Below, piece after piece: positions 15,856 to 50,400 of a DNA stretch of 64,000 nt. Within the stretch, counting starts at the first letter, position 1. Every line of letters begins with the position of its first letter. Source of the DNA: Micromonospora citrea (GTDB lineage: Bacteria > Actinomycetota > Actinomycetes > Mycobacteriales > Micromonosporaceae). The stretch spans positions 62,001-126,000 of the forward strand of contig NZ_FMHZ01000002.1 in assembly GCF_900090315.1 (NCBI RefSeq), read 5' to 3'. A program made the position numbers and the translations under genes. The notes beneath the pieces were generated by a model. The model was not told where the DNA came from and searched no databases. It saw only the letters and a program-made list of their open reading frames with translations.

Positions 15856-18309
15856 TCACGGGCTGGTCGCGCCGCCGACCAGCGGCGGTTCCGTGGCCCG
15901 CGCGGGTGCGGGGTGGAGGGTCACCGTCCCCACGGCGGCGTCCACGGTGACGAGCTGACCGGTCCGGATCCGGGCGGTGGCGTCCGGGACGCAGATGACG
16001 GCGGGAATGCCGTACTCCCGGGCGACGGTCGGGCCGTGCGCCATCACCGCTCCCGTCTCGGTGACCAGCGCGGCGGCGGTGAGGAACAGCGGCGTCCACC
16101 CGGGGTCGGTGGTGGGCGCGACCAGGACGTCGCCGGGTTCGACGTGGGCGGTGGCCGGGTCGTGGACGACCCGGGCCGGGCCGGTGGCCCGCCCGGCCGC
16201 CGCGCCCACGCCCCGCAGCGCCCCGTCGGGGGTCGGCGCGGGTGGGAGGACGGCCTCGACGTCGGTGCCGTCGGAGAGCAGGGCCACCGGGACGGCCGGG
16301 CGGCGCAGCTCCCGGCGGTGGGTCGCGCGGCGCGCGGCCACCGTCGACCGGTGGTCGGCGCCGTCGTGCACGGCCGTGTGTGCCTCGTCGAGGGTCAGGA
16401 ACATGATGTCGCCGGGGTCTGCCAGCAGGCCCCGCCCCGCCAGCTCGGCGCCGACGAGCAGCAGTTGCCGGCGCATCTCCCGCAGCCGGTAGAGTCCCGC
16501 GAACTTGCCGGCCTCCCGCAGGCCGGCAAGCATCCTGGCCCGGCGCAGGAGGAACCCGGCGATCCGGCCACGGACCGGCCGGCGCCGGCGGGCCCGGGCG
16601 ACGAGCTGCGCGCAGGTCGCCTCGGCGGTCGCCGCGGCGCGGGCGAAGCGCCGGTCCGGGGCCTGCTCCGGATCCGTGACGCGCAGGTAGTTGGCGATCA
16701 TGGCGAAGACCGGCGTGGGGTCCTCGTCCCAGCGCGGCACCCCGAGGTCGACCTCGGCGGCGGCGCGGTGCCCGTAGCGGTCCAGGAACGCGGCCAGGCC
16801 GACGTCGGGCAGCGTCCCCCGCGCGTACGCCGCCGCCAGCTCGCGCGGTGGGGTGGTCAGCAGCAGTTCCCGGTGCTCGCCGGCCTGCCTGCTCAGCCGC
16901 CACAGCGCCAGGTCCATCTCGATGGTGACGTTGTGCGGCATCCCGCCCAGCACCGTGTTGATCTCGTCGGGCTCGGCCACGCCCCGCAGCAGCGAGGCGG
17001 GCAGGGTGGCGGCGAGCATCCCGGCGACGATCGGCCAGACGATGTCGTCGGGGCCGGTCGACGGGTCCTCCTCCCGCACGTACCGCAGCCGGTCCGCCGC
17101 GGTGCGCAGGTCGGCCGGCGGCACCGAGTCGGCCCGGAGTCGTTCGACCTCGCGGAACAACCGGGCGCGGGCGGCCTCCGGGCGGGCCAGCGCCCGCACG
17201 ACGCCGGTCGCGGCCCGGGCGGCGGTCCGCAGGGCCGGCCCGGTGGCCGTACGGTCGGGGCGGGCGCCCGGTAGCGGCGCGAAGCGCGGGTCGGCGAGCA
17301 CGTGCTCCATCACCGCCTGGGCGCGCGGTCCGAAGTCCACCGCCATCAGCTTGACCAGGCGTTTGCGGGTCGAGGGATGGCGGGCGAGGTCGGTCAGGTC
17401 GCCGTAGAGGCGCCCGCCGATGTCGGTGATCTCCACCGTGAGGCCGAACGTCGCCAGCATGGCCGCCACCAGGGACTTGAGGCTGGACATGCCCATCGGG
17501 GTGGCGGGCTGCCGCATGCCCTGCACGTGGCCGAACTCCAGGTAGACCCGGGGCGCCGGCCGACCGGTCTCCGGTGGCGGCGGAAACAGCGTGGTGACCG
17601 GCCTCGACTGGAGCAGCCAGAGCCGGCCCTGCCGGTCGTACGCCCACTCGACGTCCTGCGGGCAGCCGAACCGTTCCTGGAGGCGGCGCCCGGCGTCCCG
17701 CAGTTCGTCGAGCCGGGCGGCGTCGAGCAGGCCGGTGGCGGTCGGCGGCGATCCGTCGAGGACGTACCGTTCGACGGCGGCACCGCCGTCCACGACGGCC
17801 GTGCCGGGCCCCGCGGCGGCCTCCACCAGCATCTCGGTGCGGCAGCCGGTGAGCGGGTTGGCGGTGAACAGCACGCCCGCGGCTGCCGGTTCGACCATGC
17901 GTTGCACGACGACGGCCATCCGCACCGACTCGTGGTCGATCCCGTGGGCTTCGCGGTAGGCGACGGCGCGGGCGCCGTGCAGCGAGCGCCAGCACTCCTC
18001 GATCGCCGATAGGACGCCGGCGGTCCCGGTGACGTCGAGGAAGGTGTCCTGCTGGCCGGCGAAGCTGGCGTCCGGAAGGTCCTCCGCGGTCGCGCTGGAC
18101 CGCACGGCCACCGGCCCGCCGCCCAGCCGCTCGTACGCCCGCTCGACCTCGGCCCGCGGCACGACGCCCAGTTCGTGCGCGGCGGTGGTGACACAGAAGC
18201 CGTCCGGCACGCGCTCCCCCGAGCGCGCCATCTCCCCCAGCCGGGCCGCCTTTCCGCCCACCAGGTCGACCATGCTCCCGGTCACCTCGGACAACGTGAT
18301 CACCTGCAT
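15856..18309 (-). CDS. PEP-synthase-type phosphotransferase, rifampin phosphotransferase (RPH)-like
   Basis: 817 aa with RPH/PEP-synthase architecture. The N-terminal ATP-binding domain has LVGGKAARLGEMARSGERVP, VRSSATAEDLPDASFAGQQ and DVEWAYDRQGRLWLLQSRPV; a variable middle domain (about 340-690) follows. The C-terminal swivelling phosphohistidine domain has TETGAVMAHGPTVAREYGIP, whose His is the catalytic carrier. RPH enzymes inactivate rifamycins by phosphorylation. A different PEP-utilising reaction cannot be excluded, since the middle domain is divergent and the usual SHG is AHG. The ATG at 18309 follows AAGGGG; the frame further upstream is non-homologous. Confidence 0.75.
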   Translation of the reverse strand: MQVITLSEVTGSMVDLVGGKAARLGEMARSGERVPDGFCVTTAAHELGVVPRAEVERAYERLGGGPVAVRSSATAEDLPDASFAGQQDTFLDVTGTAGVLSAIEECWRSLHGARAVAYREAHGIDHESVRMAVVVQRMVEPAAAGVLFTANPLTGCRTEMLVEAAAGPGTAVVDGGAAVERYVLDGSPPTATGLLDAARLDELRDAGRRLQERFGCPQDVEWAYDRQGRLWLLQSRPVTTLFPPPPETGRPAPRVYLEFGHVQGMRQPATPMGMSSLKSLVAAMLATFGLTVEITDIGGRLYGDLTDLARHPSTRKRLVKLMAVDFGPRAQAVMEHVLADPRFAPLPGARPDRTATGPALRTAARAATGVVRALARPEAARARLFREVERLRADSVPPADLRTAADRLRYVREEDPSTGPDDIVWPIVAGMLAATLPASLLRGVAEPDEINTVLGGMPHNVTIEMDLALWRLSRQAGEHRELLLTTPPRELAAAYARGTLPDVGLAAFLDRYGHRAAAEVDLGVPRWDEDPTPVFAMIANYLRVTDPEQAPDRRFARAAATAEATCAQLVARARRRRPVRGRIAGFLLRRARMLAGLREAGKFAGLYRLREMRRQLLLVGAELAGRGLLADPGDIMFLTLDEAHTAVHDGADHRSTVAARRATHRRELRRPAVPVALLSDGTDVEAVLPPAPTPDGALRGVGAAAGRATGPARVVHDPATAHVEPGDVLVAPTTDPGWTPLFLTAAALVTETGAVMAHGPTVAREYGIPAVICVPDATARIRTGQLVTVDAAVGTVTLHPAPARATEPPLVGGATSP

Positions 18310-40782: not shown

Positions 40783-41385
40783 ATGCGAGAAATCGACCCG
40801 GCGCGTACGGCCGTCGTCGGCGTCCACTGGCAGCACGAGGTCGTCAGCCCCGACGGGCTGTTCGGCCCCTTCTTCGCCGAGCAGGTCGCCCGGCACGACG
40901 TCGCCTCGCACGCGGCGCGGGTCAACGCGGCCGTGCGCGCCGCCGGTGGTCTCGTCGTGTACACGCGGGTGGCGCACCGGCCCGGCCATCCCGACCTCAT
41001 CCCCAACACGCCCAGCTTCGCCATGATCGCCGAGCGGCAGGCCTTCCTGGAGGGCGCGCCGAAGTCCCGCATCATCGACGAGCTCGCCCCGGAGGCCGGC
41101 GACGTCGTCATCACCCACGTGCGGCTCACCGGCTTCTTCGGCACCGAACTGGACACGGTGCTGCGCCGCAGGAAGATCGACACCGTCCTGTTCACCGGCG
41201 TGGCCACCAACCTGTCCGTCACCGGCACCGCCTTCGAGGCGGTCAACCACGGCTACCGACCCGTCATCGTCTCCGACGCGTGCACCGCCGCGACCGACGA
41301 GGCGCACCGGGCGAGCCTGGAGACGCTGGGCCGGCTCGGCGAGGTGGTGACCACCGCCGACGTCGTCGACCGCCTGGGTGGTTGA
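40783..41385 (+). CDS. Isochorismatase-family protein with altered catalytic triad
   Basis: 200 aa with the cysteine-hydrolase fold: AVVGVHWQHEVV, GFFGTELDTVLRRRKIDTVL, GVATNLSVTGTAFEA and HGYRPVIVSDA. The usual nucleophilic Cys (GVATNxCV) is Ser, the first Asp (VIDxQ) is His (GVHWQ), and the usual Lys before the FFGT segment is Arg or missing. It may be a pseudoenzyme, a ligand-binding protein or a divergent hydrolase. GGGAGGG precedes the ATG, 11 nt after paralogue 2. Confidence 0.8.
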   Translation: MREIDPARTAVVGVHWQHEVVSPDGLFGPFFAEQVARHDVASHAARVNAAVRAAGGLVVYTRVAHRPGHPDLIPNTPSFAMIAERQAFLEGAPKSRIIDELAPEAGDVVITHVRLTGFFGTELDTVLRRRKIDTVLFTGVATNLSVTGTAFEAVNHGYRPVIVSDACTAATDEAHRASLETLGRLGEVVTTADVVDRLGG

Positions 41386-41512
41386 GCCGCGACGGCGCAC
41401 GGCCCGCCCGCATTCGGGCGCCGTCGCGGGCGCGGGTCAGCACGGGTGGCGGCTCTCGGTTGGGCCGGTCGAGGCCGAGGGCCCGTCGCGGCGGTCCGGC
41501 CGGCGAATGTGG

Positions 41513-41541
41513 TTGGCGACGCGGGCGGCGTCCCCTACCGT
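41513..41541 (+). promoter_or_regulatory. Promoter of Y RNA copy A
   Basis: -35 TTGGCG (41513-41518), 17-bp spacer, -10 TACCGT (41536-41541). The expected start, 7-8 nt on, is the first base of the predicted closing stem of copy A (41549). Copy C has the same -10 at the same offset. Confidence 0.6.
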
Positions 41542-41548
41542 GGTGGGG

Positions 41549-41700
41549 CACCTCCCGGTGCGCAGGCAACGGCTACTTCCGCTTCCCACGGGGAGACGCG
41601 GGTTCGAATCCCGCCGCCGTGACACGGTGTCGACCAGTGGCCCAGGTCGCCTTGGCCCGCAAGGGCCGGTTTCCGTTGCCGCCCTTGGTCTCGGGAGGTG
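41549..41700 (+). ncRNA. Y RNA (YrlA-like), copy A, with tRNA-like module
   Basis: 152 nt. Closing stem CACCTCCCG/CGGGAGGTG (9 bp); internal loop GTGCGCA opposite GCCCTTGGTCT; inner helix GGCAACGG/CCGTTGCC (8 bp). The inner helix carries an A-T pair where the other copies have G at that position, opposite C in two of them, i.e. covariation. The apical part has a T arm (GCGGG-TTCGAAT-CCCGC, 41598-41614), a short closed acceptor-like stem (CGCCGT/ACGGTG), a D-like arm (GACC/GGTC, loop with GG) and a GCAA-capped hairpin. It lies upstream of the Ro60-like gene that would bind it. Confidence 0.85.
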
Positions 41701-41706
41701 GGCATG

Positions 41707-41813
41707 CCGCTCACCCGGTGCGAAGGCGACGGTTACTTCTGGTGGCGACCCCCGTGGGGCCGCGCGGTTCGAACCCGCACACGCCGCCGCCGACCTCGAC
41801 CTCGGGTGGGCGG
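41707..41813 (+). ncRNA. Y RNA-like, copy B, T arm only
   Basis: 107 nt, starting 6 nt after copy A. Closing stem CCGCTCACCCG/CGGGTGGGCGG (11 bp, one G-U); internal loop GTGCGAA opposite GACCTCGACCT; inner helix GGCGACGG/CCGCCGCC (one mismatch). Inside are a CCCC/GGGG hairpin and a T-arm-like GCGG-TTCGAAC-CCGC, but no acceptor or D-arm half. No separate promoter is apparent; it is probably processed from a transcript shared with copy A. Confidence 0.65.
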
Positions 41814-41883
41814 CGTGTCCGCAACGCCCTGCCGCGTCGGCGTTTGCGTGAGAAGCCGCATGCGACCGGCCGCCGAAACCGCC

Positions 41884-41913
41884 TTGCCCACCCGCCGGAG
41901 CCACCGTTACCGT
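41884..41913 (+). promoter_or_regulatory. Promoter of Y RNA copy C
   Basis: -35 TTGCCC (41884-41889), 18-bp spacer, -10 TACCGT (41908-41913). As for copy A, the -10 ends 8 nt before the first base of the predicted stem (41921). Confidence 0.5.
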
Positions 41914-41920
41914 CGTGCCC

Positions 41921-42014
41921 GCACTTCCCGGTGCGCAGGCGACGGTTACATCTGGAGGGGCTCACGCCCCGGCGAAGGGTTCCGTCCGTCGCCGGCTCTG
42001 ATCTCGGGAGGCGC
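41921..42014 (+). ncRNA. Y RNA-like, copy C, without tRNA-like module
   Basis: 94 nt, the shortest copy. Closing stem CTTCCCG/CGGGAGG (7 bp, one G-U) extended past one mismatch; internal loop GTGCGCA opposite GGCTCTGATCT; inner helix GGCGACGG/CCGTCGCC. The apex holds only a GGGGC-TCAC-GCCCC hairpin and a fragment GGGTTCC that may be a decayed T arm. It would keep the protein-binding part but lack the tRNA mimic. Confidence 0.65.
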
Positions 42015-42021
42015 GACCACA

Positions 42022-42162
42022 CGCACACCCGGTGCGCAGGCGACGGTTACTTCATGGATCCGCGGGTTGGGGGTTCGAATCCCTCCGGGGCCCACGGGCT
42101 CCGTAGCTCAATGGACAGAGCTGCGGACACAGTCCGTCGCCGACTCTGGTCTCGGGTGTGCG
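42022..42162 (+). ncRNA. Y RNA (YrlA-like), copy D, with circularly permuted tRNA
   Basis: 141 nt. Closing stem CGCACACCCG/CGGGTGTGCG (10 perfect bp); internal loop GTGCGCA opposite GACTCTGGTCT; inner helix GGCGACGG/CCGTCGCC. The insert reads, in order: anticodon-stem half (42059-42064), T arm GGGGG-TTCGAAT-CCCTC (42069-42085), acceptor 3' half GGGGCCC, two bases AC, acceptor 5' half GGGCTCC, TA, D arm GCTC-AATGGACA-GAGC (42106-42121), anticodon-stem half (42122-42127). It ends 38 nt before the Ro60-like start codon. Confidence 0.87.
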
Positions 42163-42200
42163 TGCGGTGGCGTCTCCCCGTAGGCGAACGTGGGGGCGTG

Positions 42201-43742
42201 ATGGCCAGGTTCAACCTCAGGCTGCGCCGGAACGGGCGGGGCGCGGGCGACGGGCTCGTCACCGCCGAGGACGCGCCCGGCTTCGCGCGCGAGCCGCGCA
42301 CGGAACTGTTCCTGCTCGGCGTGTCGAACATGGTCGGCGAGGAGACCTTCTACGAGGGTGCCGCCGACCGGGACGCCCGGTTCCGTGAGCTGGTCGCCGC
42401 CGTCGCCGTCGCCGATCCCGACTGGTTCGCCCGCTTCGTGCCGTGGCTGCGCACCGGGGCGATGCTGCGTTCGGCGGCCGTGGTGGCCGCACTGGAGGGT
42501 GCCCGCGCGCAGGTCGCGGCCGGCATCCCCGGTTCGCGGACGATCGTGGACTCGGCGTTGCAGCGCGCGGACGAGCCGGGCGAGGCGCTCGCGTACTGGC
42601 TGGGCCGCCACGGTCGTACCCTGCCGAAGCCGGTCAAGCGCGGCATCGCCGACGCGGCGGTGCGGCTCTACCACGAGCGGAGCCTGCTCAAGTACGACTC
42701 CGACCGCAACGCGGTCCGGTTCGCCGACGTGCTCGACCTGACGCACCCGGTGGCGAGGGACGAGCGGCAGGGTGACCTGTTCCGGCACGCGCTGGACCGC
42801 CGGCACCAGCGGGACAATCCGCTGCCGGCGTCGCTGACGATGCTGGCCGCGCGGGCCGCGCTCATGGCGTTGCCCGTCGAGCGGCGCCGGGAGGTCACCG
42901 ACCCGGCGGTGCTGGAAGCGGCCGGAATGACGTGGGAGGCGCTCGCGGGCTGGCGACAGACGACGATGGACGCCCCGGCCTGGGAGGCGATCATCCCGTC
43001 GATGGGCTACCTGGCGCTGCTGCGCAACCTGCGCAACTTCGACCAGGCCGGCGTCGGCGACGCCGTCGCCGAGACCGTGGCGGCGAAGCTGTCCGACCCG
43101 GGCGAGGTGGCCAGGTCGCGGGTGCTGCCGATGCGCTTCCTGTCGGCGTACAACGCCGCGCCGAGCCTGCGGTGGGCGTACCCGCTGGAGAGGGCGTTGC
43201 AGCACGCCCTGGCGGACGTGCCCGCCCTGGACGGGCGGACCCTGATCCTGATCGACACGTCGGGGTCGATGACCAACGCGTTCAGCAAGGACGGCACGTT
43301 GCGCTGCTGGGACGCGGCCACGGTGTTCGGCCTGGCGCTGGCGGCCCGCGCGCGGGAGGCGACGGTGGTGTCCTTCTCCCACACCAGCGCGGTGTTTCCG
43401 GCCGTCGCCGGCGAGTCGGTGCTGGCGGCGGTGCGCCGGTTCAAGCAGGACGGCTACTTCTACGGCCAGGGGACCGAGACGGAGAAGGCGGTACGCGAGC
43501 ACTACGCCGGGCACGACCGGGTGGTCATCCTCACCGACGAGCAGGCCCACTGGCACGGCTCGGCGGACGTGACCGCCGCGGTGCCGGCGCGGGTGCCGGT
43601 GTACACGTGGAACCTCGCCGGCTACCGGGCCGGGCACGCGCCGACGGCCGGGAACCGGCACACGTTCGGTGGCCTGTCCGACGCGGCGTTCGCCATGATC
43701 CCGCTCATCGAGGCGGGATCCCGCGAGCGGTGGCCCTTCTGA
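42201..43742 (+). CDS. rsr: Ro60/Rsr ortholog, TROVE-domain Y RNA-binding protein
   Basis: 513 aa. The N-terminal TROVE domain (about 1-340, HEAT-like ring) includes WFARFVPWLRTGAMLRSAAV, LKYDSDRNAVRFADVLDLTH and PSMGYLALLRNLRNFDQAGV. The C-terminal vWA domain has an intact MIDAS starting at Asp352 in LILIDTSGSM, plus VVILTDEQAHW. Ro60 proteins form rings that bind Y RNAs on the outside and misfolded RNA ends in the centre, acting in RNA quality control with nucleases. ATG 42201 follows GGGGG. Four Y-RNA-like genes lie upstream and a terminator follows. Confidence 0.95.
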   Translation: MARFNLRLRRNGRGAGDGLVTAEDAPGFAREPRTELFLLGVSNMVGEETFYEGAADRDARFRELVAAVAVADPDWFARFVPWLRTGAMLRSAAVVAALEGARAQVAAGIPGSRTIVDSALQRADEPGEALAYWLGRHGRTLPKPVKRGIADAAVRLYHERSLLKYDSDRNAVRFADVLDLTHPVARDERQGDLFRHALDRRHQRDNPLPASLTMLAARAALMALPVERRREVTDPAVLEAAGMTWEALAGWRQTTMDAPAWEAIIPSMGYLALLRNLRNFDQAGVGDAVAETVAAKLSDPGEVARSRVLPMRFLSAYNAAPSLRWAYPLERALQHALADVPALDGRTLILIDTSGSMTNAFSKDGTLRCWDAATVFGLALAARAREATVVSFSHTSAVFPAVAGESVLAAVRRFKQDGYFYGQGTETEKAVREHYAGHDRVVILTDEQAHWHGSADVTAAVPARVPVYTWNLAGYRAGHAPTAGNRHTFGGLSDAAFAMIPLIEAGSRERWPF

Positions 43743-43994: not shown

Positions 43995-46184
43995 TCAGTG
44001 ACGTCCCTGCCGCAACAGCTGCCCCCCGGTTGCCGCACGCTCCGTCAACCCACCTGTCTGCCGCCGCGCCAGTTCGGCGTACCGGCCGCCCAACGCCATC
44101 AGCTCCTCGTGGTCGCCACGCTCGACGATCTCGCCGTGGTGCAGCACGACGATCTGGTCGGCGTCGCTGACCGTGCTGATCCGGTGTGCGATCACGATCC
44201 GCGTGCAGCCGAGCGCCGACAGTTCAGCGGCGATCGCCGCCTCGGTCAGGGTGTCGAGGTGGCTGGTCGCCTCGTCGAGCAGGAGCACGTTCGTCCTGGC
44301 CAGCAGCGCCCGGGCGATCGCCAGTCGCTGTCGCTGGCCCCCGGAGAGCGCGCCCCCGCCCTCACCGACGCCGGTACTCAGGCCCATCGGCATGCGCTCC
44401 AGGTCCGGCAGGAACTGCACCTTGCGCAACGCCTCGCGCAGTTCGTCGTCGCTGACGTCGAGCCGGCCGAGCGTCAGGTTGTCGCGGATGGAACCGCCGA
44501 AGATGTACGGGAACTGGGTGACGACGCCGAAGCGGCGGCGTAGCGGCTCCAGGTCGTAGTCGTCGAGCGGGCGCCCGTCCACCAGGACGCTCCCCGCGCT
44601 CGGCCGCAGGAGGCCGGTGAGCAGCCGTACCAGGGTGGTCTTGCCGGAGCCGGTGGATCCGACGACGGCCAGCTTCGACCCGGCCGCGACCCGCAGGTCG
44701 ATGTTCTTGAGCACGAGCGGTGTGCCGAGGTCGTACCGGAAGTCGACGCCACGCAGCTCGATCTCGCCGCGCAGCTCGGTCGGCTGGTGGGCCTGCGGGC
44801 GGGCCGGCTCCGGTTCCTCGTTCAGCACGTCGTAGATGCGTTCCAGGTGAGACCCGATCGTCTGGAGGTACCGCAACGCGCCCATCACCTGCCCGACGGG
44901 AGCCAGCAGCAGACCGGCGACGACGTTCAGGCCGAGCATCGTGCCGAGCGACATCCGGCCGGCGACCACCTGGACGACGCCGAACAGGAGGAGCACCAGC
45001 GGCGCGGCGACCTGGAACATCCCCATCGCCGACTCGTTGACCAGGTCCAGCCGCCGGCGCTCGAATCCCACCCGCACCGACACGGTGAACCGGTCAGCCC
45101 ACCGTCGCAACGCCCAGTTCGACAGCCCGGAACTTTTCAGGAACTCCGCCCCGGCCAGCGCGTCGATCGCGCTGCTCTGCGCCTTCGCGTCGGCGGCCAG
45201 CTCGCGCTGGGCACGCTCGTGGACCAGTCGGATGGTGCTCAGCACGATGCCGAACTGGGCGACCGCCAGGACCGCGACCACCGCGGCGTACGCCGGGCTC
45301 AGCGCCACCAGAAGGGCGGTGTAGACGAGGACGAAGACGGTGTCCAGCAGGAGCGTGGCCAACTGCGAGGTGAGCATGTCCCGCACGGCCATGTTGCTGC
45401 TCAACCGGCCCATCAGGTCGCCCGCGCCCCGGGTTTGGAAGTACGCGTACGGCAGTCGCATCAGGTGGCTCATGAAGCGCTCGCCCAACGTGCCGTCGAG
45501 CCGACGTTGCAGCACCAGCAGCGCCAGCCCTCGGCAGAGGGTGGCGAGGGTGTGTGTCGCGATGTACGCGCCCACGCCGACGGCGAAGAGGGACAGGGTG
45601 TCCGCCCGCTGCCCGACGAGGACGTCCACCCCGTACTTCGTCGCCCAGGCGGAGGCGAGCCCGAGCACCTGCACCACGGCCGAGAGCGCCACGGCCAGCA
45701 CCATGAGCAGCGGCGCCAGCCGGACCAGGTCACGGAGGAACCGCAGGGCGAGGTGGTCGCGGATCGAGCGGCGCCGACGGCGCAGCGACTCCTCCGGCGT
45801 GAACTCCAGCACGGTGCCGGAGAACTCCGCGAAGAACTCCTCGTGTGTCAGCCGCCGCCGGCCGTGTCCGGGATCCACCATCCGGATCCGGCGTGGCCCG
45901 ACCTTCTCCAGCACCGTGAAGTGGTCCTCGCCCCAGTGTGCGATGGCGGGCAGGCGGACGCTGGCCAGCCCGGCCTGGTTGACCCGCAGTCCCCGTGCGG
46001 CCAGCCCGTACTCGCGGGCCACCTCGAGGATGCGGCGGGCGCTGGTGCCGTCGCGTCCCACCCCGAAGTGGGCGCGCAGCTCCCGGACCTCGGTGGCGCG
46101 CCCCAGACCGCCGAGCACCATCGCCAGGCAGCTCGGCCCGCACTCGGTGCTGCTCATCTGCACGATCACCGGTACGCGGGTCAT
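43995..46184 (-). CDS. lanT: Bifunctional peptidase/ABC exporter for lanthipeptides (LanT)
   Basis: 729 aa. The N-terminal C39 peptidase (about 1-135) has catalytic Cys in SSTECGPSCLAMVL, His in HWGEDHFTVLE and Asp in VDPGHG; it cuts leaders after double-Gly-type sites. A six-helix membrane domain (about 160-440) is followed by an ATPase: Walker A GSTGSGKTT, signature LSGGQRQRLAIARAL, Walker B VLLLDEATSHLD, switch IVIAHRIST. It overlaps the lanM1 stop by 4 nt, so the two are co-translated. It is the only exporter in the cluster and probably serves all three precursors. Confidence 0.93.
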   Translation of the reverse strand: MTRVPVIVQMSSTECGPSCLAMVLGGLGRATEVRELRAHFGVGRDGTSARRILEVAREYGLAARGLRVNQAGLASVRLPAIAHWGEDHFTVLEKVGPRRIRMVDPGHGRRRLTHEEFFAEFSGTVLEFTPEESLRRRRRSIRDHLALRFLRDLVRLAPLLMVLAVALSAVVQVLGLASAWATKYGVDVLVGQRADTLSLFAVGVGAYIATHTLATLCRGLALLVLQRRLDGTLGERFMSHLMRLPYAYFQTRGAGDLMGRLSSNMAVRDMLTSQLATLLLDTVFVLVYTALLVALSPAYAAVVAVLAVAQFGIVLSTIRLVHERAQRELAADAKAQSSAIDALAGAEFLKSSGLSNWALRRWADRFTVSVRVGFERRRLDLVNESAMGMFQVAAPLVLLLFGVVQVVAGRMSLGTMLGLNVVAGLLLAPVGQVMGALRYLQTIGSHLERIYDVLNEEPEPARPQAHQPTELRGEIELRGVDFRYDLGTPLVLKNIDLRVAAGSKLAVVGSTGSGKTTLVRLLTGLLRPSAGSVLVDGRPLDDYDLEPLRRRFGVVTQFPYIFGGSIRDNLTLGRLDVSDDELREALRKVQFLPDLERMPMGLSTGVGEGGGALSGGQRQRLAIARALLARTNVLLLDEATSHLDTLTEAAIAAELSALGCTRIVIAHRISTVSDADQIVVLHHGEIVERGDHEELMALGGRYAELARRQTGGLTERAATGGQLLRQGRH

Positions 46185-49100
46185 GCTTCCTCCCCGGTGG
46201 CGACCGGGCCGGACGGTTGGCGGGCGCCGGGCGCCGCGCCGTCCGGCGGGGCCAGTAGGAGGACGTTGGGCGTGCGGTCAGGCCGAGCTGCCCGCAGCAG
46301 CCCGTAGCCGATGCCGGCGGCGCCCATCAGCAGTCCCGGCACGTGCAATCCGTGCGGTACGCCGCAGAGCTCCTCGCCGGCGAGCACCGTCTCGGCGACC
46401 GCGCGCGTCGCCCTGCGGGCCATCGCTACAAGGGCTCCGTCGCCGGTGGCCAGACCGGCGGTGAGCAGGGCTTCCGCCAGGCCGAGGTCGCCGTGGCACA
46501 GGCAGTCGTTGCCGGTGCCGGTGAGCAGTTCGCCCGAGGTGAGGGTCCGCCGCACCGCGGCGACCGCCGCGTCGAGGTCGGCGCGCACCTCGGGAACGCG
46601 CACGGTGCCGAGCATGGCCGCGCGGGCCAGCGCGACGCCGGCGGCGCCGTGACACCACGCGTTCATGAACGTGCCCGGCGGGGTGGCGTCCCGGTGGTCG
46701 GGCCAGTTGCCCGCGGCGGCGTCGTAGCGGAGGTGCTCGTAGCGCACGGCACGCTCGGCCGCGTCGAGGTAACGCTGCTCGCCCGTCACCCGGGCGATCT
46801 CGGCCAGCGCGTAGGCGATGCCGGATGCTCCGTGCGAGAAGCCGAGCAGCGGCGATCGCGCGGGGATCACGGACCGCCACGCCAGCCCCGGGTCCTGGGC
46901 CGTGGCGGTGGCTAGCAACCGGTCGCCCGCCGCGCGCAGCGCCTCCGCCGTCCACTCGTGCGGATCGACCGCGTGCAGGGCGCGCAGGGCGAGCGCCGCC
47001 CCGGCGGTGCCCGCGACCACGTCGAGGTGGTGGTCGTCGCTGAACCGCCGGACCAGTTCCGGTACGAGTCGACGTGCCTGGGTCAGCAGCGGTCGCGCCC
47101 GCCACAGCGCCCCGAGCTGGGTCAGCGCGTGGACGTAGCCGCCCAGTTCACTGAAGCCCCCGATGCCGAGCCGGTTCCGGTCGGTCTCCGGCCAGTCGAG
47201 CAGGGCGTCGACGTGTTCGCTGAGCATCGCCGTTATCGCCTCGGCGGCGGACCGGAACCTCGCCAGGCCGGTCCGCTCCCCGAGCTGGCCGAGGAACACC
47301 GCGATCCCGGACAGCCCGCTGTAGCTCTCGAACGCCGTGGGTACGACGCTCCAGTGCCGGTCGGTGACGAGCGCGAGGGTCAGCCACACCGGCCGCTCCG
47401 GGTCGCCGAGCGCGGTCTCGAGGAGGCGGTCGCCGACGCGGACGGCGGCGCGTTCGGCGAGCGCCTGGTCGATCTCCTCGGCCGGCGCGGCGCGGACCCG
47501 GGGCGCGTCGCCTCCCTGGCCGTCGCCGAGTTGCAGCGCGGCCAGCGAGGCCGACACGGCCCAGCTCTGTTGGCGCAGGTCGGCGTCGGACAGTCCGGCT
47601 ATCCGGTCCCGGACGAGGTCCAGTCCGCGGTGGGGGAAGAAGTCGCGTACGACGAGGTCGCGGTCGTCGTACAGGTCCCGGGAGTCGGGTCGGGTCCGGA
47701 AGAACGGGATGTCGCGCCGGGCGAGCTGCCGAATCTCGCTGGTGGCGACGGCCCGGTCGGCGACCAGGTCGGGATGGCGGGTCGCGAGGACCTCGAACAG
47801 GCACTCCCTGTCCAGGGCGTCGCCCAGCACCACCGGGTGCCAGGATTCGCCGAGGATGCGGCCGTACACCATGGTGGGCAGCACGATGAACCGGATCTCG
47901 TCCGCAGCGAACGCGGCGACCGGCCCGTCGGGTGCGGCCAGCTCGTCACGATGCGCGAGCAACAGCCGGTAACAGGCTTCGAAACCGGAGACCAGGTCTG
48001 CCTTGTATCGTGCGGGTTCCACCACGGTGCCGGCGACCGTGGGCAGGTTGTGCCCGCCCGGCATCTCCATCCGGGCCCGGGTCCGCCGCATCCGGTCGGT
48101 GCCGGTGTCCTGCCACCGCGGCACCTTCATCGGGCTCAGCTCCCCTCGCCCGCCGGCCATCCCGGACAGCTCGGTGGCCACCACCTCGTCACCGTCCTGC
48201 TGGATCAGCCGCTGCGGCAGCAGGCCGATCGACAGCACGGACTCCTCGATGCGGTGCATCGCCTCGGCGGGCAGCACCAGCGGCCGGGTGCCGGTGGTCG
48301 GCCGGGCCTGTTGGAAGATCGCCTCCAGATCGACGATCACCGGGTGCTCGCCGGCGGCTATGACGTTCTCCAGGTGGATGTCCGAGGCGCGCAGCAGGTA
48401 CAGCAGGCTCAGGTAGGCCCCCTGCCGCCAGTAGAAGCGGCGCAGTTCCTCCTCGTCGGCGCAGCTCTGCGGGTGGACGAACTCGACCCAGCCGTACCCG
48501 GCCCGCTCCACGATGGTCAGCCGCCGCAGTGGGCAGGCCGTCCCCTTGTCGTTGAGCCAGTCGACCAGGGCGTAGAAGTGCGACTCCACAGCGAGTGAGC
48601 GCGGCTTGTAGACCACCTTGCCGCCGTCGACGAACGTGAGGATCGCGACGCTGCGCCCGCCGCGGTGCGTGTCGCCGGCGCCGGTCCGCACCTCCACCAG
48701 GTCGTCGAGCGAGGTGGCGGTCAGGCCGAACTCCGCACGCAGCGCCGGCAGGTCGGCCAGCACGCGCCGGGTCAGCTCGCTCCGTACCGTCAGCCACGTC
48801 TCCATGTCGTCGACGAGCTCCCGGGTGAGCGTCGGATACTCGGCGAGGATCCGCAGGGCGTACGCCGGCTCGCGAAGCTGCCGGACGAAGTCACCGAACC
48901 GTGCTGACGGGGTGTCACCGGACAACGTTCCGGCGGTGCGTGCGCGCTGCAGGTGGACCGCGAGCACCGGACTGATCATCGCCAGGTGGACCTCGTGGTT
49001 CGGCCGCAGCAACGGATGGTGTGGCGGAATCTCGCCCTGGTGGCCGTGGTCGCCGGCGAGGCGGCTCACCTCCTCGTGCAGTCGCTGCTGGTACCAGTGC

Positions 49101-49528
49101 GACAGCGGGTGGACCAGCGTGAGCAGGTCGGCGGTCGGTCCCAGATCTGCCGTCGGACCGGCGTCGAACGGGGGCATCTCGGCTGAGTCGGTCGACCACG
49201 CCCGCGCCACGCTGGTCAGCCACGACGGTGGCTGCGGCACCCGGTCGCGCAGGCTGGCGGCGGACTCGCCGAGGAGCAGCCCCAACTCATCCTCGCTGAG
49301 GCCGGACTCGTGCCACCGGGCGAGGTTCGGCTCCAGCCCGCCGGTGGCGGCCCGGACGGTCCGCCAGGCGTCGAGCCGACGCGCGCCGCGGGTACGGGCC
49401 GCCTCGGTGTCGGGCACCGGCGCGCGCCGTCGTTCCTGCAGGGGCAGGGCAGCCCACCAGGCTGGTCGGTCGAACACGTCGCTGCCGAGGTCGGCGCGAT
49501 CGCTCGTTGCGATGTTGCGTGGGGCCAT
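46181..49528 (-). CDS. lanM: Class II lanthipeptide synthetase LanM1
   Basis: 1115 aa. The N-terminal dehydratase (DUF4135, kinase-like) has GAGDTHRGGRSVAILTF, VVYKPRSLAVESHF, DIHLENVIAAGEHPVIVDLE; it phosphorylates and eliminates Ser/Thr of the precursor. The C-terminal LanC-like cyclase (about 760-1100) has zinc ligands Cys959 (NAWCHGAAG) and Cys1011-His1012 (CLCHGDLG), forming thioether rings. ATG at 49528 follows GGAGAG. It lies 112 nt downstream of the precursor LanA1 on the same strand, so that peptide is its presumed substrate. Confidence 0.94.
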   Translation of the reverse strand: MAPRNIATSDRADLGSDVFDRPAWWAALPLQERRRAPVPDTEAARTRGARRLDAWRTVRAATGGLEPNLARWHESGLSEDELGLLLGESAASLRDRVPQPPSWLTSVARAWSTDSAEMPPFDAGPTADLGPTADLLTLVHPLSHWYQQRLHEEVSRLAGDHGHQGEIPPHHPLLRPNHEVHLAMISPVLAVHLQRARTAGTLSGDTPSARFGDFVRQLREPAYALRILAEYPTLTRELVDDMETWLTVRSELTRRVLADLPALRAEFGLTATSLDDLVEVRTGAGDTHRGGRSVAILTFVDGGKVVYKPRSLAVESHFYALVDWLNDKGTACPLRRLTIVERAGYGWVEFVHPQSCADEEELRRFYWRQGAYLSLLYLLRASDIHLENVIAAGEHPVIVDLEAIFQQARPTTGTRPLVLPAEAMHRIEESVLSIGLLPQRLIQQDGDEVVATELSGMAGGRGELSPMKVPRWQDTGTDRMRRTRARMEMPGGHNLPTVAGTVVEPARYKADLVSGFEACYRLLLAHRDELAAPDGPVAAFAADEIRFIVLPTMVYGRILGESWHPVVLGDALDRECLFEVLATRHPDLVADRAVATSEIRQLARRDIPFFRTRPDSRDLYDDRDLVVRDFFPHRGLDLVRDRIAGLSDADLRQQSWAVSASLAALQLGDGQGGDAPRVRAAPAEEIDQALAERAAVRVGDRLLETALGDPERPVWLTLALVTDRHWSVVPTAFESYSGLSGIAVFLGQLGERTGLARFRSAAEAITAMLSEHVDALLDWPETDRNRLGIGGFSELGGYVHALTQLGALWRARPLLTQARRLVPELVRRFSDDHHLDVVAGTAGAALALRALHAVDPHEWTAEALRAAGDRLLATATAQDPGLAWRSVIPARSPLLGFSHGASGIAYALAEIARVTGEQRYLDAAERAVRYEHLRYDAAAGNWPDHRDATPPGTFMNAWCHGAAGVALARAAMLGTVRVPEVRADLDAAVAAVRRTLTSGELLTGTGNDCLCHGDLGLAEALLTAGLATGDGALVAMARRATRAVAETVLAGEELCGVPHGLHVPGLLMGAAGIGYGLLRAARPDRTPNVLLLAPPDGAAPGARQPSGPVATGEEA

Positions 49529-49640
49529 CACGTCTCTCCGTTGCGGCTTGTCACGGTGGAACGGGTGCCGGGTGGGCGGTGGCGGCGGACGTCTCCGCCC
49601 ACCCGGTGACGCGACCGGAATGCCGATCGCCATCGCGGGA

Positions 49641-49817
49641 TCAGCAGCAGCCGACGCTGAAGATGCCGCAGGTGCCACAGATGCTGTGCTTGAAGGTGGA
49701 GATCGTGACCGTGATGGTGAAGCACACCGCGCTGCTACCACCGTTGATCTCCTGATCGAGGTCGGTCAGGTCGAGCTGACCGATCGGGTCCTCCACGAGT
49801 TCCGGTCGTTCCGTCAT
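49641..49817 (-). CDS. lanA1: Lanthipeptide precursor LanA1
   Basis: 58 aa. The leader, 27 residues, is acidic (MTERPELVEDPIGQLDLTDL, then DQEINGG) and ends in a double-Gly cleavage site. The 31-residue core starts SSAVCFTITVTISTF and ends HSICGTCGIFSVGCC, with 5 Cys and 10 Ser/Thr. The ATG at 49817 is preferred to the in-frame GTG at 49826 because of the spacing from GGGAGG. It lies just upstream of lanM1. The leader is unlike those of the two plus-strand precursors. Confidence 0.88.
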   Translation of the reverse strand: MTERPELVEDPIGQLDLTDLDQEINGGSSAVCFTITVTISTFKHSICGTCGIFSVGCC

Positions 49818-50151
49818 TTTTGTCACCTCCCCCCGTCAGATCGCGAACCGTCGCTGTTCTGGCCGAGCGGGCCGAGCGTCTCAGACGTCGGTTGTTTCCC
49901 GGTCGACGCTCGGTTCACTGCTGATTCGGCCGCGGTAGAGCCGCCCGACACCGGTATTGACCGGCGCGCCGGCGGTGTCCAGTGTGGTTTCCGCCGCCAC
50001 CCTGGCGGCGCCGGTTCCTGGCCGAGCCGAGTTTCCGATTCCGTCGCCTGTTCTGTCCGCGGGCTCATCGCCGCCCGCCGCGGTTGCCGTATTCGTCATC
50101 CGGGATGAAGCGGCAGGCGGGGCGACATTTCTTTCATCGATCGGAGAAATC
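49818..50151. promoter_or_regulatory. Divergent control region of the lanthipeptide cluster
   Basis: 334 bases between the divergent precursors lanA1 (minus) and lanA2 (plus). Both operons must start here. Ribosome sites are GGGGGGAGG (lanA1) and TCGGAGAAA (lanA2). No perfect palindrome was found. A long plus-strand frame runs through the region, but its translation is low-complexity before the lanA2 ATG. Confidence 0.4.
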
Positions 50152-50400
50152 ATGGAAACTGCCGCGAGGGCGTGGAAGGACCCGGTGTTCCGGGCCGCGC
50201 TCGACGACGCCGAACTCGCCCTGCTGCCGGCCCACCCGGTCGGCGCGGTCGAGCTGGACGAGATGGTCACGGACGGAACGCGGGGCGCCGGCACCGAGTC
50301 CACCGCGACGATGGGCTGCTGCAACGGGGAGCCCTACACCTTCCGCACCTGCCTCACCTGCTACCCGCTGTGGACCTGCCGCACGTGCTGGGGGTGCTGA
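50152..50400 (+). CDS. lanA2: Lanthipeptide precursor LanA2 (mersacidin-type leader)
   Basis: 82 aa. The leader has the mersacidin/lichenicidin-type motif ARAWKDPVFRAALDD, then AELALLPAHPVGAVELDEM. The presumed cut is after the GA of TDGTRGA, giving a 36-residue core (GTESTATMGCCNGEPYTF... ending TCRTCWGC) with 7 Cys and several Thr. There is no classical double-Gly. Its stop overlaps the lanA3 start by 1 nt. Presumed substrate of LanM2. Confidence 0.88.
   Translation: METAARAWKDPVFRAALDDAELALLPAHPVGAVELDEMVTDGTRGAGTESTATMGCCNGEPYTFRTCLTCYPLWTCRTCWGC

Follow-up and report, generated by a model that had tools for sequence, protein, structure and literature searches.

A Y RNA array beside the Ro60 gene of Micromonospora citrea with predicted permuted tRNA heads, and an anticodon-arm signature among its relatives

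Introduction

Upstream of rsr, the gene for the bacterial Ro60 orthologue Rsr, Micromonospora citrea carries four tandem units that, judged from sequence, almost certainly form a Y RNA array. The array lies in a stretch of 64,000 nucleotides (nt) that was analysed as a whole and is called the window here (assembly GCF_900090315.1, contig NZ_FMHZ01000002.1, positions 62,001 to 126,000 of the forward strand, that is, 62001-126000 of contig C2 of a 7.2 Mb genome). Bacterial Y RNAs are known tRNA mimics of unclear purpose, and for one of them, YrlA, circular permutation of a tRNA has already been published (PMC11472068). By comparison with related loci, the array is of ordinary size and known kind, its relatives include a variant class with complete permuted-tRNA heads, and the effector heads in general are predicted to be whole or partial circularly permuted tRNAs. 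The conservation and covariation of the units, a tRNA tertiary core and, in relatives and phages, an anticodon-arm signature can all be followed in the aligned units. An earlier interpretation of the same DNA from its letters and reading frames (the sequence-only reading) had recognized the array and missed that its RNAs resemble circularly permuted tRNAs, that anticodon arms occur and that two promoters are likely.

The Y RNA array and rsr

The units and the gene that follows them are:
41549..41700, + strand: unit A, a predicted permuted tRNA-Glu-like mimic (structural score 18; 114.8 bits with covariance model R1, which has unit A among its training rows)
41707..41813, + strand: unit B, with a T-arm hairpin only (score 16, class 'Tarm-only', 42.6 bits)
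41921..42014, + strand: unit C, compact (score 17, class 'noT', 49.2 bits)
42020..42164, + strand: unit D, YrlA-like and opened in the anticodon loop (score 18, 98.5 bits)
42201..43742, + strand: rsr, the bacterial Ro60 orthologue (TROVE and vWA; Pfam TROVE, 1.4e-13)

On re-reading the window, the four units were found where they had been described. Each has an internal loop with a 5' side of 7 nt (GTGCGCA, or GTGCGAA in unit B) and a 3' side of 11 nt ending in CT, followed by an inner helix of 8 nt. The closing stems are unlike in sequence from unit to unit and retain their pairing, and the inner helix has a covarying pair, both as previously claimed; this pair, the fourth, is A-T in unit A and G-C in units B, C and D, and the inner helix of unit B contains one A.C mismatch. 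The next gene, which starts 36 nt after the end of unit D, is indeed of the TROVE type, a VWA_2 match lying below its cut-off, and shows kinship to the TROVE-domain proteins 9l5y/9kop in the PDB (1.3e-31). It is the sole match in its own genome at E <= 0.001 and its nearest named relatives are from Micromonospora. The sequence DTSGS, a downstream T and TDE are legible in its translation, a pattern that we take to be the metal-ion-dependent adhesion site (MIDAS) that had been described as intact.

A structural scan allowing at most four mismatches in the 5' motif and requiring at least 6/8 pairs in both the inner helix and the outer stem was applied to 81 loci, namely the window and L002-L081. 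It found 204 units with scores of at least 13 upstream of Rsr, and none on the reverse strand or in equal-length stretches taken from the Rsr start, where the maximum was 12. Not all 204 are convincing: those in L003 at -2947 and L013 at -2299 (both with score 13), at least, lie far upstream and look like chance matches. Three loci, L004, L034 and L068, have no unit at score 13; L004 is cut by a contig edge, and in L034 one unit is found by R1 at 106.8 bits. Counting units within 2.2 kb of Rsr at 77 loci, with the window included and the duplicate locus L018 dropped, there is one unit in 20 loci, two in 21, three in 13, four in 18 and five in 5, so that the statement that bacterial loci usually have one or two Y RNAs and that four is unusual does not hold for actinomycetes. 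At the Catellatospora loci L016, L019, L020 and L025 a shorter last unit lies just before rsr, with most of the array 0.66-0.83 kb apart.

In an alignment of 59 units, 94.8% of cells are paired over 37 pairs, 26 of which show double changes, and double-change cells number 375 compared with 119 after shuffling and 35-80 with the partners slid. The compensatory changes that the sequence-only reading had asked relatives to provide are abundant. The outer helix is 94.1% and the inner helix 89.6% paired, each with double changes in 6/8 pairs, figures that have to be read alongside a scan that already demanded at least 6/8 pairs in both. Selection of the 59 rows required a T arm, a D arm of recognised sequence and a closed anticodon arm carrying T33; hence these features are no evidence in this alignment (the D helix is 100% paired), and the acceptor helix, 95.9% paired with double changes in 7/7 pairs, is. 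An open reading frame (ORF) at 41280-43742 runs through the array in the rsr frame. Among Micromonospora relatives unit A measures 150-153 nt, B 100-103 nt (with two longer exceptions), C 86-93 nt and D 133-138 nt; such lengths shift the frame while the changes keep the pairing, which makes a coding frame a poor explanation for the conservation of the array. Folding z-scores against dinucleotide shuffles are -2.1 for A, -2.3 for B, -2.2 for C and -5.0 for D, so that D would be the sole unit to stand out if judged by energy alone. Overall, those tests proposed for the Y RNA interpretation that were run support it.

Model searches and linkage to Rsr

The covariance model R1 was built from the 59 aligned units, and in the genome of M. 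citrea its four best scores are those of the four units, everything else scoring at most 40.9 bits. In a class survey of 296 genomes, with thresholds of E <= 1e-10 for Rsr and at least 70 bits for R1, Rsr was found in 37 genomes and R1 units in 34, every one among those 37; the top R1 score in a genome without Rsr was 59.2 bits (G031; stricter filters). Three strong units, G101:C5:161564, G291:C4:23289 and G182:C1:7011382, are on another contig than Rsr or about 0.5 Mb or more from it. Their neighbours are MFS transporter, amino-acid permease/collagen-like or PriA-like genes, with no evident theme, and a unit of G275 adjoins a second, divergent Ro60 gene. RtcB is present in 32/37 genomes with Rsr and 101/259 others, a difference not used as evidence since relatedness is uncontrolled.

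The search with existing Y RNA models that the sequence-only reading had suggested succeeded in part: in Rfam unit D matched YrlA at 45.6 bits (E 5.6e-8) and unit A weakly at 28.1 bits (E 0.0064), and B and C remained unmatched. The gathering score of 69 for RF02553 was reached by none of the four units and at none of 17 related loci, the remaining 3 of an intended 20 having been omitted for size. Three weak tRNA matches (30.1-35.2 bits) came from the scan of these loci and coincide with Y RNA units in L058, L041 and L073. At a lax E-value the YrlA model has sub-cut-off matches in 13/14 control genomes, and a weak match such as that of unit A therefore proves little alone. R1 finds Y RNAs where the Rfam model stays under its threshold.

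Circularly permuted tRNA heads

The proposed order of a complete head is anticodon arm, variable loop, T arm, sealed acceptor stem and D arm. Within the window unit A would be complete, with a proposed closed anticodon arm, unit D would be opened at the anticodon, unit B would have a T arm only and unit C none of these elements. The parts assigned in A and D are:
41577-41593, + strand: proposed closed anticodon arm of unit A, with loop CTTCCCA at 41582-41588
41594-41597, + strand: variable loop AGAC of unit A, with the T arm at 41598-41614
41615-41629, + strand: sealed acceptor of unit A, six pairs, with the D arm at 41632-41648
41652-41669, + strand: extra hairpin of unit A, with the inner helix at 41565-41572/41673-41680
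42059-42063/42123-42127, + strand: anticodon stem TCCGC/GCGGA of unit D, an open stem with 5/5 pairs that leads into the body
42069-42085, + strand: T arm of unit D, with the D arm at 42106-42121

Heads of at least 45 nt (154 in total) were compared with the tRNAs of the own genome, which represent 43 anticodon species. The mean score was 55.3 for permuted, 42.7 for unpermuted and 26.4 for shuffled comparisons, the permuted target being a few bases longer; the permuted score exceeded the best of five shuffles in 143/154 heads and the unpermuted score in 125/154. Unit D follows this pattern, with a permuted match of 78 (tRNA-Arg) compared with 51 unpermuted and a shuffle maximum of 28. For unit A the permuted order is predicted to lead the linear one only narrowly (50, Glu, and 47, Gly; shuffle maximum 35), and unit B scores 32 permuted and 34 unpermuted. 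The D arm of unit A, GACC-AGTGGCCCA-GGTC, resembles that of the own-genome tRNA-Glu(CTC), GTCT-AGCGGCCCA-GGAC. Units A and D have a tRNA-like head that includes the T arm, acceptor, D arm and tertiary core, a combination absent from B and C; in C neither a T arm nor a D arm was found. The acceptor is sealed by a loop, and free CCA ends and the unpermuted tRNA order are absent. ARAGORN reports no tRNA at 41500-42200.

The tertiary core was followed through positions 15 and 48, which form the Levitt pair in tRNA. Units were required to have a T arm and a canonical D arm, and both positions were left free. The pair is G-C or A-T in 106/106 bacterial units (66 and 40, respectively), where 56.2 would be expected if the two positions were independent and relatedness is left uncorrected. 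Both kinds of pair occur within 17 loci. In the viral contigs described below, 62/65 units have the pair, with 35.9 expected and three exceptions. An earlier and narrower regular expression had given 33 and 16 units with zero exceptions and was superseded by this explicit search.

Anticodon arms

Following the inner helix, 175/204 units have a conserved ACTTC or ACATC, which was used as a fixed anchor. A hairpin of 5 bp with a 7-nt loop is found at the anchored position in 42/175 units, where 2.2 are expected, and other loop lengths occur 0-5 times. As the idea of an anticodon arm arose from this bacterial set, the test was repeated on viral contigs, in which, after removal of exact duplicates, 24/108 anchored new units have the hairpin compared with 1.2 expected. 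These viral arms have Y32, T33 and A38 in 24/24 cases and a purine at position 37 in 23/24. We consider that a class of relatives carries, as predicted from these patterns, an anticodon-arm signature far above chance. Tests with a movable variable loop gave 67 hairpins at loop length 7 and 26 at length 9 (variable loop 4-5), or, in a broader version (variable loop 3-6, run of at least 4), 69 at length 7, 56 at length 9 and 21-24 at lengths 4, 5 and 10; because movable frames inflate such counts, the fixed-anchor test was used instead.

The loops themselves are often those of genuine tRNAs. In a pooled, looser set requiring the inner four pairs, 50 of 84 loops are identical to one of the 45 anticodon loops of the M. 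citrea genome (tRNAs and tRNA-like genes), compared with 20.2 after column permutation and a maximum of 32 in 2000 permutations. Counting distinct loops, 14/42 match with 6.0 expected, a value reached in 1 of 2000 permutations. The matched loops are of the isotypes Asn, Ser, Glu, Met, Pro, Gly, Arg and others. Mini units of less than 85 nt can have an anticodon arm only, as seen in 9/26 anchored minis (the duplicate pair L017/L018 counted). In 11 A units of the Micromonospora group, C32, U33 and A38 are invariant, and the anticodon columns 39 and 40 rank second and third most variable of 155. The arm of unit A, TTCCG-CTTCCCA-CGGGG, is placed as expected next to the variable loop, and unit A probably belongs to the closed-arm class.

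Several results weigh against a closed arm and its derivation from individual tRNAs. The arm is part of the minimum free energy (MFE) structure in just 18/59 aligned units, with a mean pair probability of 0.24. In unit A it is absent from the MFE structure and has a probability of 0.01, the modelled fold being 4.6 kcal/mol worse (-75.5 compared with -80.1 kcal/mol), and the unit A loop, with C at position 37, is identical to none of the tRNA loops of its own genome. An alternative open stem (4-5/5 pairs) can form in 41/69 closed-arm units, A included, and also in 73/101 other units, the partner being the segment after the D arm in the best of four placements. With these MFE and open-stem results the anticodon arm could also be open or switch between states, and the possible open stem means that the closed arm may be one state of several or not the true one. 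In the viral set a loop length of 9 is likewise above chance (13 compared with 1.1). Loop and body isotypes agree in part, with a mean rank of 11.3 of 43 compared with 16.5 after shuffling; Glu anticodons are found on 5/20 Glu-type bodies and 4/60 others (p 0.039). Since this agreement is partial, we do not claim that each unit is a copy of one intact tRNA.

Phages and viral contigs

Relatives of Rsr (E <= 1e-5) are encoded in 64 phage records, whose hosts include Streptomyces (13 records), Rhizobium (10), Gordonia (8), Caulobacter and, in one case, Arthrobacter; Y RNAs in mycobacteriophages have been mentioned (PMC12282133). A close look at nine of the 64 records located the Ro60 gene inside a tRNA array in three (GiJojo, BRock and Atuin), and in Neville tRNA genes come after it. 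R1 units are present in 8/9 phages, with best scores of 45.4-105.3 bits, and Thermus phage phiLo has no R1 unit. Several listed tRNAs coincide with Y RNA units: the annotated tRNA-Arg(tct) of VanLee sits within a 105.3-bit unit, tRNA-Arg(cct) of GiJojo within a 52.8-bit unit and tRNA-Gln of CcrColossus within a 78.1-bit unit, and tRNA-Pro(tgg) of Frankenweenie overlaps a 45.4-bit unit. On three of these phage Y RNAs ARAGORN likewise reports tRNA-Arg(tct), tRNA-Arg(cct) and tRNA-Pro(tgg), whereas the CcrColossus stretch yields no tRNA with it. The annotations L267:2626-2697, L264:2697-2771, L270:2673-2763 and L271:2068-2135 upstream of Ro-like genes are likely mis-annotations, and some phage 'tRNA' entries beside Ro60 genes would then be Y RNAs. 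In contrast to the tRNAs of these arrays, the Y RNAs are permuted and their acceptor is sealed, and for this reason they should not be chargeable. The viral contigs L214 and L180 encode a terminase and an endolysin. Genes for AAA-family ATPases (L190:1993-3510 and L208:744-2300, 505 and 518 amino acids) were noted near Y RNA and Rsr genes of viral contigs.

Comparison with known systems

Like units A and D, the common bacterial YrlA (Rfam RF02553), present in Salmonella and others, combines a Y handle with a permuted tRNA-like head (PMC11472068, PMC8394870), and unit D aligns over the entire Rfam model. The head of YrlA comprises D, T and acceptor arms; the RNA is modified by DusA and TruB and acts as a tether between Rsr and PNPase (PMC8394870). 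The difference is that the Rfam consensus is without a hairpin at the anticodon-arm position, whereas many relatives, and probably unit A, have a closed arm with a 7-nt loop. As far as we have found, a complete anticodon arm in many Y RNA units is new; closed anticodon arms, multi-isotype arrays and anticodon-only minis were not found in the literature searched, and Chen 2013, Chen 2014, Sim and Wolin 2018 and Wang 2018 may describe some of this. The Deinococcus radiodurans RYPER also pairs a Y RNA with Rsr (PMC8394870, PMC4726728), and by analogy a tether to Rsr would be expected here. The window differs in having four RNAs with differing heads, and PNPase binding is conjectural in this case. 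As in the Salmonella rsr-yrlBA-rtcBA operon (PMC7790460), more than one Y RNA accompanies rsr, whereas the RtcB genes of M. citrea are off-locus, the nearest of the matches listed being about 98 kb away on C2. Two of these matches, G000:C2:4569-5858 and 7128635-7129924, have identical scores and lie near opposite contig ends, which suggests terminal repeats or an assembly overlap. Vertebrate Y RNAs share a Ro60-bound stem with an internal loop, and GGUGCGAAGG in unit B resembles their motif according to the sequence-only reading alone; they are reported to be non-homologous to bacterial Y RNAs (PMC4726728).

Transcript layout and possible functions

Two promoter-like sites were identified by eye:
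41513..41541, + strand: upstream of unit A, TTGGCG - 17 nt - TACCGT
41884..41913, + strand: upstream of unit C, TTGCCC - 18 nt - TACCGT

The pattern TTGnnn - 17-18 nt - TAnnnT is kept in Micromonospora at 13 loci before A and 10 loci before C, the window included. No such pattern was seen by eye upstream of B, which starts 6 nt after A, or of D. This suggests two putative transcripts, A-B and C-D-rsr. A scan with the sigma-70 consensus found no promoter, a result that speaks against this layout and leaves conservation as the basis for the sites.

We hypothesize that the RNAs would be transcribed two by two, A with B and C with D, the second transcript continuing into rsr, and bound by Rsr. One shared handle (closing stem, internal loop and inner helix) would thus be combined with differing heads in a set of Ro60-bound Y RNAs. 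These heads would present unchargeable tRNA surfaces and recruit tRNA-recognising proteins to Rsr, the candidates being enzymes that modify tRNA, enzymes of repair or decay (RtcB or PNPase, for example) and anticodon nucleases, and the paralogues would differ in the tRNA surface offered. A role as adaptor or bait for tRNA-handling enzymes appears the most likely function and, on what the sequences offer, a reasonably probable one; it overlaps with a reading in which the heads are decoys. With real tRNA loops on anticodon arms and mixed head types per locus, the question of what binds the heads becomes concrete and points to proteins that read anticodon arms.

It is possible, if doubtful, that the heads with anticodons act as decoys, sacrificed to or inhibiting tRNA-cutting toxins or phage-defence nucleases and so titrating them, and that phages carry such heads to the same end. 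Genuine anticodon loops of many isotypes would be expected of such decoys, as would variable columns 39 and 40 beside the invariant C32, U33 and A38 of the 11 A units; the variable triplet is also compatible with a U-turn mimic that has a structural role only and is under looser constraint. The Ro60 genes in the tRNA arrays of GiJojo, BRock and Atuin, the tRNA genes after that of Neville and a partial RNA-ligase-like ORF about 3.5 kb from Rsr on viral contig L217 are also in keeping with decoys. A role against anticodon nucleases has been proposed for phage tRNAs (PMC10264068), and competitive inhibition of an anticodon nuclease has been suggested for Salmonella YrlA, which is not a substrate of that enzyme (PMC7790460). 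However, many units, B, C and D included, are without a closed anticodon loop, the nuclease itself is hypothetical and Rsr has no match among the PADLOC defence models. In its widest form the idea, which we put forward tentatively, is that actinomycetes and their phages might maintain sets of permuted tRNAs, unchargeable, bound to Ro60 and of several isotypes, that bait or inhibit anticodon-reading enzymes. If so, the anticodon loops of the baits would be genuine and quickly changing, their targets would include, for example, tRNA-cutting toxins and defence nucleases, and the phage copies near or in tRNA arrays would constitute a second anti-nuclease layer, some of it recorded as ordinary tRNAs.

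We regard it as unlikely that all four RNAs simply tether Rsr to PNPase as in Deinococcus, with tRNA mimicry serving folding or stability and the copies being redundant. Tethering is the role that experiments have shown for a bacterial Y RNA (PMC8394870, PMC4726728), and the common handle and the ACTTC/ACATC stretch agree with it. It leaves unexplained, however, the identity of loops with real anticodon loops, the 15-48 covariation and the differing head classes that occur within loci and recur among them.

That C-D, and A-B, serve solely as a 5' leader tuning rsr to free Rsr is improbable. Units C and D do lie between a conserved promoter-like site and rsr, with the short distance from D to the start codon given above, and there is no terminator-like site between D and rsr in the window. 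Against a leader stand the Catellatospora arrays, mostly separated from their last unit, the strong units away from Rsr in G101, G182 and G291, and the Y RNAs of other systems, which act as separate RNAs. Finally, the notion that these are not RNA genes, and that the repeats are kept as coding sequence, as the frame open through the array would permit, or by chance, deserves next to no credence in view of the frame-shifting unit lengths, the covariation and control scores that never exceed 12.

Other features of the window and genome

Downstream of rsr a lanthipeptide-like cluster at 43995-50400 encodes a LanM-type synthetase (DUF4135 and LANC_like) and an ABC transporter with a C39 peptidase on the - strand; a small Cys/Thr-rich ORF at its end (49957-50400, + strand) could encode the precursor. 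At 15886-15985 of the window ARAGORN calls a tRNA-Val(cac) of 100 bases with poorly paired arms, which looks spurious. Elsewhere in the genome an odd cluster of tRNA-like genes, L134 (G000:C2:6285390-6287420), scores up to 40.9 bits with R1; it includes one four-base 'gcaa' anticodon call and unusual D arms and is possibly a tRNA array of a mobile element.

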